Shown: positions 23,462-44,878 of the stretch, in pieces | Position numbering within the stretch: position 1 is the stretch's first letter | Layout: each line of letters opens with the position of its first letter | Assembly (NCBI RefSeq): GCF_016863015.1 | Contig: NZ_BOOB01000018.1 | Span: 1 to 64,000, forward strand | Origin: Microbispora amethystogenes | Lineage (GTDB): Bacteria; Actinomycetota; Actinomycetes; Streptosporangiales; Streptosporangiaceae | Direction: 5' to 3' | Length of the DNA: 64,000 nt | Notes under the pieces: generated by a model | The model's input: only the letters and a program-made list of their open reading frames with translations | Databases searched by the model: none | Told to the model about the DNA's origin: nothing | Program-made: the position numbers and the translations under genes

Positions 23462-23538
23462 TGGTCGGGGTGGCGGGATTTGAACCCACGGCCTCTTCGT
23501 CCCGAACGAAGCGCGCTGCCAAGCTGCGCTACACCCCG
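23462..23538 (-). tRNA. tRNA-Pro (anticodon CGG)
   Basis: A 74-nt cloverleaf plus encoded CCA on the reverse strand. The acceptor 5' CGGGGTG pairs with 3' CACCCCG. The D-arm region is GTAGCGCAGCTTGGCAGC. The anticodon stem is CTTCG/CGAAG around loop TTCGGGA, giving anticodon CGG for codon CCG. The T arm reads GTGGGTTCAAATCCCGC with the invariant TTCAA. Discriminator A and an encoded CCA follow. No repeated tRNA 3' end or integrase gene was seen nearby, so it is not obviously an integration site in use. Confidence 0.97.
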
Positions 23539-41842: not shown

Positions 41843-42115
41843 TCCGTACTCCTTCACAGCGTCTTCGGGTTGTCTCTCGTTCGGCCGCCTCGGCCAAGCT
41901 GGGGTATGTCGTGTCCCACTTCACCAGGCGAGCGGCGTCAAGTACAAGTAATCCGGGCAGGCACGCCGTAGCTCCGCGTTGTCCGTGGTAACAGGGCTAT
42001 GACCGGCAAACGTAGTGACGGGTGGGAAGCCCGCCGAGATCGCGTACGTGCCCCTGCGGTGAACGGGCGCACCTCCTCGGCGAACGACGTTGACCGGCCG
42101 GTATGGTCGAGGGCT

Positions 42116-42892
42116 GTGAGCGATCCCCTGGCCGTCGTCGCCGGGCTGCCCGGCGTGCCCGAGGCCGTACAGGAGGCCCGGGAGGCCGTCGACCGGCTCT
42201 ACCGGCACCGGGTGCTGCGGCGGCGCGGTCCCGAGGTCACGGCCGAGTCGGCGCTGCGCGGGGCGCGTGCCTCCGCCGCGCTCGAAGGCGTCGACGTGCC
42301 TCTCGAACCGCTGCGCATGGGCGAGGTGGCCGACCCGGTGGCGCAGGGCGCGCTGCGCGCGTCGGCCGAGCTCGGACGGCTGACTCCCACGTGGCGGTCG
42401 GCTCCGCGTCAGGTCCTCGCCCGGCTGCACACGCTGGCGGCCGCGGGCCTCACGGCCGACCCCGGCAGGCCGCGTACGGTTCCCACGACCGCCGATCCGC
42501 TCGGTCTCGGCCCGGCCCCGGGCCCGGAGGAGACCGCGGCCCGCATGTCGGCGCTGGCCGGGCTGGTGACCGGCTCGTCCGCGGTGCCCGCGCTCGTGCT
42601 CGCCGCGATCGTGCACGCCGAACTGGTGGTGCTGCGGCCCTTCGGCGTCGCCGACGGCCTGGTCGCCCGTGCCGCCGAACGGCTCACTCTCGTCGGCCTC
42701 GGCCTCGATCCCAAGTCGCTCGCCGCCGTCGAGGTGGGGCACGCCGATCTGGGCGACGCGTACGCCGAGGGCCTGAGGTCGTACCAGAAGGGGACGGGCG
42801 AGGGCGTCGGCGCCTGGATCCGGCACTGCGCCACGGCCGTCGTGCTCGGGGCGCGTGAGACGACGGCGATCTGCGAGGCCATGTCCCGCTGA
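42116..42892 (+). CDS. Degenerate Fic/DOC-like protein (annotated as oxidoreductase in relatives)
   Basis: 258 residues, mostly helical. The region VLRPFGVADGLVARAAERL stands where Fic proteins have HPFx(D/E)GNGRxxR, but the His and Asn are lost (Arg, Ala), so AMP-transfer activity is unlikely. An upstream N-terminal TAESALRGARASAALEGVDVPLEPL looks like the Fic regulatory segment. Its neighbours match the Streptomyces gene beside the ssd locus. A TATGGT box ends eight bases before the GTG, without Shine-Dalgarno, so it may be leaderless. Function is unknown. Confidence 0.6.
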   Translation: MSDPLAVVAGLPGVPEAVQEAREAVDRLYRHRVLRRRGPEVTAESALRGARASAALEGVDVPLEPLRMGEVADPVAQGALRASAELGRLTPTWRSAPRQVLARLHTLAAAGLTADPGRPRTVPTTADPLGLGPAPGPEETAARMSALAGLVTGSSAVPALVLAAIVHAELVVLRPFGVADGLVARAAERLTLVGLGLDPKSLAAVEVGHADLGDAYAEGLRSYQKGTGEGVGAWIRHCATAVVLGARETTAICEAMSR

Positions 42893-43360
42893 GCGACCCC
42901 TGTTCGGGGGCGTGCGGCATATCCCATATTGCGGGGCTGCTGCGGGGTGTCTGTTCCGGGGCTGTTCCGGGGTGTTCGGCACGCCCGAAAAGCGGACGGC
43001 GTCCCTGGTGTGGAACGCCGTCGCCGGTACACGTCACCGGGCTACCAAGCGTGCACCTCATATTTGTCGGAGCGGGTCAAGCCCGTCTCGACACGCCTCC
43101 CGCGGCTGGTCGCGCGTGGGTACCCGATGCGGTACGCGGACCCTCAGGTCCGTAATCCCTTTTTACGTCCGAATCCTGGATATGGAAAGCCCCGAGCGCG
43201 GAAGCTTTACCCGAGTCGGCGCGGCATTTATGGCGCTTCATCCTTCTTTAAGCACATTTGGCCTGATTGTGGCTGGTGTGAACCATGGGACGTAGCAGCG
43301 CAGGTGGTGCGATGTGCCCCCTGTCCACCCGTTGCGACCGCGTGCATCCACATGTAACAC
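42893..43360. other. Start of the 900-nt gap between the Fic-like gene and ssd
   Basis: No protein gene is credible here. Base composition is locally AT-rich (TTTAAG, TTTTTACG and similar). It contains a reverse-strand terminator at 42985-43022 and the -35/-10 pair TTGCGA-17-TAACAC at 43332-43360 for the forward RNA below. In M. tuberculosis and Streptomyces the same place holds the 6S-like sRNA. Confidence 0.6.
42985..43022 (-). terminator. Reverse-strand terminator inside the non-coding gap
   Basis: GACGGCGT (42995-43002) and ACGCCGTC (43015-43022) form an 8-bp stem. On the reverse strand it is followed by CGCTTTTC, four T's at 42988-42991. Both flanking genes are forward, so this element could only serve an RNA made from the reverse strand in this gap. 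Confidence 0.45.
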
Positions 43361-43593
43361 TGACTCGGAGAAAAAATTTTACTCAAATCGGTGGTGGGCT
43401 CGACCTGCCTGTCCCGATCGGGCAGCATACGGTGCGTCTCTCCCCAGAGACGGCATGTGTCACGGAGTGGTGGACCTCTTGCCACGCCACGGCTTCGTGT
43501 TTAAAGCTTTTGGAATAACGGCCCGGCTCTACCCCCCCAGAGCCGGACCCACGGCGACCCCCGCTATCCCCCCCGGCGGGGGTCGCCCTTTTT
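43361..43593 (+). ncRNA. Candidate 6S-like small RNA (Ms1/MTS2823/scr3559 position)
   Basis: Promoter: TTGCGA (43332-43337), 17-base spacer, TAACAC (43355-43360). The predicted transcript runs to the terminator at 43593, about 225 nt. It contains hairpins CGTCTC/GAGACG at 43435-43452, a bulged stem around CCCGATCGGG, and CCGGCTCT/AGAGCCGG at 43523-43546. Location between a Fic-like gene and ssd matches the actinobacterial 6S-like RNA, which binds RNA polymerase. In Mtb that RNA is divergent from ssd, so the real one may be on the other strand. Confidence is split accordingly. Confidence 0.4.
43553..43593 (+). terminator. Strong terminator before ssd
   Basis: A perfect 12-bp stem (GGCGACCCCCGC at 43553-43564, complement 43576-43587) is followed by CTTTTT. 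It closes the forward transcript upstream of ssd. Confidence 0.75.
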
Positions 43594-43692
43594 CTCCGAT
43601 CTTCTCGACCGTCTCCGAGCCTCCCCGGCCGGTCTCGGGGGCACTCTCCAGGCGCTCTCCGAGGGGGTGCCGAGTGGCGACGAGTCCCGGTT

Positions 43693-43719
43693 TCGTCCAC
43701 AGGACGGGCGCCGTCCACA
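43693..43719 (+). promoter_or_regulatory. Two DnaA-like boxes upstream of ssd
   Basis: TCGTCCACA (43693-43701, 8/9 of TTGTCCACA) and CCGTCCACA (43711-43719, 7/9) lie about 75-100 bases before the ssd start. Together with the five boxes between tadC and the pilin gene, they suggest DnaA contact in this locus. Confidence 0.35.
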
Positions 43720-43792
43720 GAACGCGGTTCGCGCCCCGCCGAGGTTTCGCTTCTCGCGCATCGTGGTCCTCCCGGACGACAGGGAGACACCG

Positions 43793-44878
43793 ATGCCACG
43801 CCCGCTGGCCGTAACCGACGATCAGGATCTGCTCGACGATCTGCTCCGCATCGCCGCCGCGGCGGGCGTCGAGCTGGACGTCGCCCAGGCGGCCGCCCAC
43901 GCCCGGCCGTACTGGATCCGGGCGCCGCTGGTCGTGGTCGGGGCCGACCTGGCCGACGACCTCGCCGCGACCGGCCCGCCGCCCCGGCCGAACGTGGTCG
44001 TCGTCACGCGGACGGCCGGAGATCCCGACATGTGGCGCAGATGCGTGGCCGTGGGCGCGCACACCGTGCTGGAGCTGCCGGAGGCCGAGCGGCTTCTGGT
44101 CGAGGAGTTCGGCGACGCGGCCGAGCCCGCGAGCCGGGCCGGGACGGTCGTCTGCGTCGCCGCCGGGAAGGGCGGCGCGGGCGCCACCGTCCTCGCCGCG
44201 TCCCTGGCGCTCACGGCGTCGCGGCGCGGGCTCCGCACGCTGCTCGTCGACGCCGACCCGCTCGGCGGCGGCATCGACGTGCTCCTCGGGCAGGAGGAGG
44301 CGCAGGGCGCCCGCTGGCCCGACGTCGCCGGGAGGGAGGGCCGGGTGAGCTATGCCGCGCTCCAGGAGGCGTTGCCCACCTTCGGAGAGCTCACCGTGCT
44401 TTCGGCGCATCGAGGAGAGCCCGTGCGCATCCCCCGGGAGGCGATGCGCGCCGTGCTCGACGCCGCGCGGCGCGGCTGCGACCTGGTCGTCGTGGACCTG
44501 CCACGCCATGTGGGGGAGGGCGAGGCGGAGGCGCTGACCAGGGCCGCGTCGACGATCGTCGTCGTCCCCGCCGATCTCCGCGGAGCGCTCGCCGCCGCCC
44601 AGACCGTGACGCTGCTGCGCCCCGGGACCGGTGACCTGCGCCTGGTGATGCGGACCGGATCGCTGGACCCCCAGGTCGTCGCGGCCTCCCTCGCGGTCCC
44701 GTGCGCGGGCGTGCTCCCCGAGGTGCGCGGGCTGGCCGAGACCCTGGACCGGGGAGATCCGCCGCCGCTCGGCCGCACCCCTCTCGGGCGCTTCTGCGCG
44801 GATCTGCTCGACTCGCTCCCGGGCGGGCTCGATCCCGGACGGGCCGGGTGGGCGCAGGCGAGGACGGACGGCCGATGA
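43793..44878 (+). CDS. ssd: Septum site-determining protein Ssd (CpaE/MinD-like)
   Basis: 361 residues. An N-terminal receiver-like domain (residues 1-115) is followed by a MinD/ParA-type ATPase fold. The deviant Walker motif reads CVAAGKGGAGATVLAASLA: the Gly-rich loop is kept but the signature Lys is Ala. This is seen in Ssd relatives and implies altered or no ATP hydrolysis. GGGAG precedes ATG 43793. The stop overlaps tadA in ATGA. In mycobacteria Ssd affects septum placement; here it may tie the pilus to the pole or septum. Confidence 0.85.
   Translation: MPRPLAVTDDQDLLDDLLRIAAAAGVELDVAQAAAHARPYWIRAPLVVVGADLADDLAATGPPPRPNVVVVTRTAGDPDMWRRCVAVGAHTVLELPEAERLLVEEFGDAAEPASRAGTVVCVAAGKGGAGATVLAASLALTASRRGLRTLLVDADPLGGGIDVLLGQEEAQGARWPDVAGREGRVSYAALQEALPTFGELTVLSAHRGEPVRIPREAMRAVLDAARRGCDLVVVDLPRHVGEGEAEALTRAASTIVVVPADLRGALAAAQTVTLLRPGTGDLRLVMRTGSLDPQVVAASLAVPCAGVLPEVRGLAETLDRGDPPPLGRTPLGRFCADLLDSLPGGLDPGRAGWAQARTDGR

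Follow-up and report, generated by a model that had tools for sequence, protein, structure and literature searches.

The minus strand of the 900-nt gap between a Fic-like gene and ssd in Microbispora amethystogenes (positions 42893-43792 of the analysed 64,000-nt stretch, hereafter the window) very probably, i.e., with a probability of about 0.93, carries a compact orthologue of Ms1 RNA which runs from 43153 to 42988, features its own promoter and terminator and is assigned its polymerase role by homology. The gene, its strand, its likely ends, its structure and its orthology are results of the present analysis. The gap accommodates a second small-RNA gene, 6C, on the plus strand; both genes run outward and are predicted to begin in the middle of the gap, the Ms1-type gene being directed toward the Fic-like gene and 6C toward ssd. 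Ms1 has been predicted in Microbispora before, as the genus is listed as a synteny-based Ms1 candidate in Table 4 of a survey from 2022 (PMC9130861), which contradicts the statement of a preliminary description of this DNA that such an RNA is undescribed in this genus. The available main text of that synteny survey does not specify the ends, the strand or the structure of the Microbispora RNA, and what is new here is a well-delimited member.

The Fic-like gene (41999-42892, plus strand) converges on the Ms1-type gene and represents a syntenic neighbour. It scores 22.1 bits against the Pfam Fic model, slightly below the cut-off of 24, and shares 44 and 51% identity with the gene at the Ms1 3' end in a mycobacterial-type (L055) and a Streptomyces-like locus (L061), respectively, these labels being assigned here and below by Rfam scores and gene order. 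On the other side, ssd (43793-44878, plus strand; TIGR03815, 353.3 bits with a cut-off of 154.45), encoding a septum site-determining protein, is located downstream of 6C and followed by tadA-type genes. The ssd locus has named relatives which assign the genome to Microbispora. The gap is retained in 15 of 15 Microbispora genomes. As already stated in the preliminary description, no credible protein gene was found between 42893 and 43792; the open reading frames overlap one another in several frames, and indels which are not multiples of three occur in the alignments, so that a protein gene was ruled out.

The Ms1-type gene comprises 166 nt (42988-43153, minus strand), with the 5' end predicted from sequence at the A of position 43153 and the 3' end in a U-tract at 42988. 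Its putative promoter reads TTTCCA-17 nt-TAAAAA-6 nt-ACGGA, the first base of the RNA being the A of ACGGA. The -10 box TAAAAA (43160-43165) is located 6 nt before +1 and is separated by the 17-nt spacer from the -35 box TTTCCA (43183-43188). Both boxes resemble the consensus weakly. Nearly all of the Streptosporangiaceae sequences compared feature a -10 box of the form TA[AGC]A[AC]A at equal distance, and the -35 box aligns with TTCCCA, TTGTCA or TTTTCA in relatives and with TTGATG in mycobacterial Ms1; other members of the order feature TTGTCA and TAGACA with unchanged spacing. The geometry equals that of the mycobacterial Ms1 promoter (TTGATG-17-TACAAA-6-ACGGA), and the mapped Ms1 start of M. 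smegmatis is an adenine (PMC4191392). Judged from these elements, the gene would possess its own promoter with A as first nucleotide as well as its own terminator, as is the case for Ms1. The motif GGTAAAG(C/G) (43204-43211, minus strand), which precedes the -35 box by about 15 nt, is conserved in many Streptosporangiaceae and is a possible activator site.

Within the RNA, all parts of which are encoded on the minus strand, a 5' hairpin (43137-43152; helix 1, compensatory changes in 6 of 6 pairs) precedes the central region, the most conserved parts of which, ACCCACGCGCGACCAGCCGCGGGAGGCG on the 5' side (43094-43121) and GGTGCACGCTTGGTA on the 3' side (43043-43057), are invariant across 25 species. 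The terminator hairpin (42995-43022; helix 8, compensatory changes in 10 of 11 pairs, 99.5% of cells paired) is followed by a U-tract (42988-42991). The core ACCCACGCG of the 5' central side and GCACGC[UA]UGGUAACC of the 3' central side are common to mycobacterial Ms1 (RF02566; MTS2823 in M. tuberculosis), which likewise shares the ACGGA start and the terminator.

With permissive settings, the Rfam Ms1 model (RF02566) matched the minus strand end to end from 43153 to 42988 (22.7 bits, E 0.0014); the match covers both shared strings, ACCCACGCG and ACGCUUGGUA, as well as the 3' terminator hairpin. This score is far from the gathering score of 162 bits and thus from strict membership in RF02566; as that score was reached in only four among 296 genomes of the phylum, all belonging to one family, the cut-off is lineage-specific. 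Streptomyces-like loci, the kind proven to bind polymerase, likewise fail it with 26 bits. In Acrocarpospora the Rfam model reached 33.8 bits (E 7e-5) with nearly identical ends, and in two further genomes 32.6 and 26 bits. Against the whole genome of M. amethystogenes, the Rfam Ms1 search gave no match at E <= 0.001, as the model is adapted to mycobacteria, and a lineage model was therefore needed. Accordingly, model R1 was built from 24 Streptosporangiaceae sequences and one of Actinomadura, and model R2 from an alignment of 62 sequences (A2) originating from Streptosporangiales and other actinobacteria, without any mycobacterial or nocardial sequence. The locus in the window scored 190.1 bits with R1 and 165.6 bits with R2 and was the sole match in the genome. 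Within the order, R1 detected the RNA in 168 of 201 genomes, covering 43 of 45 genera, with a single match per genome; it scored Streptomyces-like genomes at 46-58 bits and recovered 7 of 8 Rfam-Ms1 loci in the correct place and strand (best score 32.6 bits). All eight mycobacterial and nocardial Ms1 loci were recovered by R2, again in the correct place and strand, with E-values, rough as for R1, of 1.4e-7 to 4.4e-5 (25 kb), and several of them also at a whole-genome E < 1e-3. A survey of the class with R2 yielded one match each in 136 of 297 genomes.

A canonical 6S RNA, which would bind the sigma-HrdB holoenzyme and template short product RNAs, is a very unlikely identity for this locus. The RNA does display a 6S-like shape with its long interrupted hairpin, and its 166 nt fall within the usual 6S range, but the likeness to 6S RNA (RF00013) is confined to general architecture and size: no RF00013 match was obtained within the gap, even with E-values of up to 5 allowed, or anywhere in the genome, although the same search was positive in five control genomes. 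Moreover, sequence, promoter and synteny all follow Ms1, and the Streptomyces relative binds mostly core polymerase (PMC11077062). A genome without a 6S match fits the published pattern of one abundant type of polymerase-bound RNA per species (PMC11077062).

The only Rfam match in the gap at the gathering threshold is 6C RNA (RF01066; 43517-43591, 62.3 bits, gathering score 47), which occupies approximately 43514-43593 on the plus strand. It is a full member of the family, to which scr3558 belongs, and shows no notable difference: besides the gathering score, at least six C per loop are expected, and each of its two hairpins carries seven C in the loop. It is the only 6C RNA in the genome and is conserved in relatives. 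Its probable promoter (43479-43507), composed of TTGCCA (43479-43484), a 17-nt spacer and TAAAGC (43502-43507), is conserved in 24 Streptosporangiaceae sequences. Sub-threshold matches to Scr3202, ar7, ar14, Pseudomon-1, RgsA and CcsR1 were all located on the 6C hairpins and were rejected as cross-matches caused by C-rich loops. The sole further Rfam match in the window besides 6C is a tRNA gene (23465-23538, minus strand, 64.1 bits). Between both RNA genes, a DNA element CTCGAC-N11-GATCGGGCAGCATACGGTG (43399-43434) is conserved in 24 species at varying distance from the 6C promoter; it does not resemble an obvious sigma-70 promoter and could serve as a binding site for a regulator or as an additional promoter of 6C. 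In addition, an A/T-rich block GAAAAAATTTTACTCA (43370-43385) in the middle of the gap is conserved and conspicuous in this G+C-rich genome.

The preliminary description had placed a 6S-like RNA on the forward strand, extending from a promoter-like pair at 43332-43360 to a strong terminator at 43553-43593, a version that now appears extremely improbable. Both elements exist on the plus strand, i.e., the pair of TTGCGA (43332-43337) and TAACAC (43355-43360) with a spacer of 17 nt as well as the terminator, but the latter is the second (3') hairpin and thus half of the 6C RNA, which possesses the nearer, conserved promoter at 43479-43507. The pair shares only 7 of 12 positions with the consensus, is absent from the promoter-scan list and is altered in its -10 half in most Microbispora species; it is not a conserved promoter and not that of the minus-strand Ms1-type gene. 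Neither an Ms1 nor a 6S match was obtained on the plus strand. The covariance search which the description had suggested thus returned Ms1 on the minus strand (43153 to 42988, on the side of the gap closest to the Fic-like gene), 6C on the plus strand and no 6S match. Its placement of an Ms1/scr3559 orthologue in the gap is strongly supported by the Rfam match, R1 and R2, covariation, promoter and synteny.

Across the 24 Streptosporangiaceae sequences and the one of Actinomadura, the minus-strand block features a mean column identity of 88% and long invariant central stretches. In A2, 37 of 49 pairs were changed on both sides in a compensatory manner, all eight helices covaried, and 93.7% of the cells were paired compared to 32-41% with the 3' sides slid, no shuffle attaining any of the five measures; as A2 was fitted to the model, the structure is favoured and the effect size leans that way. 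Alignment alone would hardly generate so many changes on both sides of helices that contain no gaps. Covariation supports both hairpins and the long interrupted stem, with the centre predicted as a junction and not as a clearly open bubble. Folding of both strands, another suggestion of the preliminary description, confirmed a stable fold of the minus strand (lower than 200 of 200 shuffles, z -4.0), but the opposite strand folds nearly as well (z -3.6), so that the strand cannot be chosen by folding alone. The assignment to the minus strand follows from the G-U pairs, which are common (reaching 18 of 60 rows in certain pairs of the terminator) and would become A-C mismatches on the other strand. 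That the block is a bidirectional terminator or 3' UTR of the Fic-like gene resembling Ms1 by chance, as its position at the end of this convergent gene and the nearly palindromic hairpin (plus-strand match at 42995-43022) might suggest, is practically excluded by promoter boxes conserved at a fixed distance from the conserved ACGGA start, by conserved internal segments far from the terminator and by covariation in 8 of 8 helices.

The order of genes in the window is Fic-like (+), Ms1 (-), 6C (+) and ssd (+), compared to Fic-like (+), Ms1 (-), HAD (-) and 6C (+) in the mycobacterial-type locus L055 and 6C (-), HAD (+), Ms1 (+) and Fic-like (-) in the Streptomyces-like locus L061. The neighbourhood by which Ms1 is recognized, i.e., a Fic-like/oxidoreductase gene, HAD or CpaE/ssd, and 6C, is present in the orientations of the mycobacterial type, with HAD located elsewhere. 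No HAD gene lies between the Ms1-type RNA and 6C here, whereas it is present at this place in mycobacterial-type and Streptomyces-like genomes; the best match to the HAD hydrolase model (TIGR01490) is found outside the window, about 56 kb away on the same contig (contig positions 99718-100323). The Ms1 RNA of Streptomyces coelicolor (scr3559/Str13, about 228 nt) differs from the RNA in the window by a longer 5' part, an apical part of 77 nt and the presence of HAD. The Streptomyces-like loci matched by R1 and R2 feature the same neighbours and the same direction toward the Fic-like/oxidoreductase gene. In these loci, the same -10 box occurs about 62 nt before the model match, so that the predicted RNA length is about 230 nt, in agreement with the mapped S. 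coelicolor RNA, which spans about 228 nt (PMC9130861). The strand of scr3559 is disputed, being minus in PMC8539372 and plus in PMC9130861. In the Streptomyces-like genomes, the model matches, the -10 box and the terminator (e.g., L061:1451-1680, plus strand) yield the strand co-directional with HAD, in support of the assignment in the latter study.

With 166 nt, the RNA in the window is about half as long as mycobacterial Ms1 (about 300 nt), which is mainly due to its apical arm of about 60 nt compared to about 140 nt. The stretch separating the conserved central segments measures 58-61 nt in the window and most relatives, 77-78 nt in Streptomyces-like loci and 139-151 nt in most mycobacterial and nocardial loci, with 104 nt in one of them. 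The whole RNA comprises 161-173 nt in most of the family and about 183-190 nt in others. Since the stretch of 58-61 nt and an RNA of about 165 nt are found in most relatives, the short arm is a property of the lineage, and since the Streptomyces RNA (about 228 nt) is also shorter than the mycobacterial one, length is not diagnostic for the Ms1 class. Still, the arm varies within the order, as the apical part comprises 107 nt in one locus (L115:1501-1715) and about 60 nt in other members of the family.

The Ms1-type RNA would be transcribed from its own sigma-A/HrdB-like promoter starting at A43153 and would form a long interrupted hairpin between the 5' hairpin and the 3' terminator hairpin, with the terminator directed toward the Fic-like gene. 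Judging by its homologues, the RNA most likely accumulates as growth slows. The conserved central segments would place it in the DNA channel of the sigma-free core RNA polymerase as an RNA that imitates open promoter DNA, and it may thereby store or protect polymerase and aid regrowth. Expression, polymerase binding and an effect on growth are inferred, and for polymerase binding and the stationary-phase role, the findings in Mycobacterium and Streptomyces provide a reasonable basis. Both Ms1 and scr3559 have been shown to associate with core polymerase lacking the primary sigma factor (PMC4191392, PMC9130861, PMC11077062), the binding experiments having been conducted with M. smegmatis and S. 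coelicolor (PMC4191392, PMC9130861), and the central bubble matters for binding (PMC4191392, PMC9130861, PMC11077062). As the segments around the centre are the most conserved ones here, the same polymerase role is the best assumption. It seems unlikely that the short-armed Ms1 of the Streptosporangiales, with an arm about 80 nt shorter than the mycobacterial one, is a functionally altered minimal form intermediate between 6S and Ms1, which might, e.g., bind the HrdB holoenzyme in addition to the core or, like 6S, serve as template for product RNAs.

The delimitation of this Ms1-type RNA fixes the strand, likely ends, promoter and structure of Ms1 for a large group of antibiotic-producing actinobacteria, in which its earlier record consisted only of a gap between named genes. 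Besides, the HAD-co-directional orientation of scr3559 in Streptomyces is supported. In Microbispora-type lineages, the standard length of Ms1 is about 165 nt, and this naturally compact RNA indicates which parts of the molecule can be dispensed with. Moreover, the 166-nt form offers a simple construct for structural work on an RNA that occupies sigma-free RNA polymerase.
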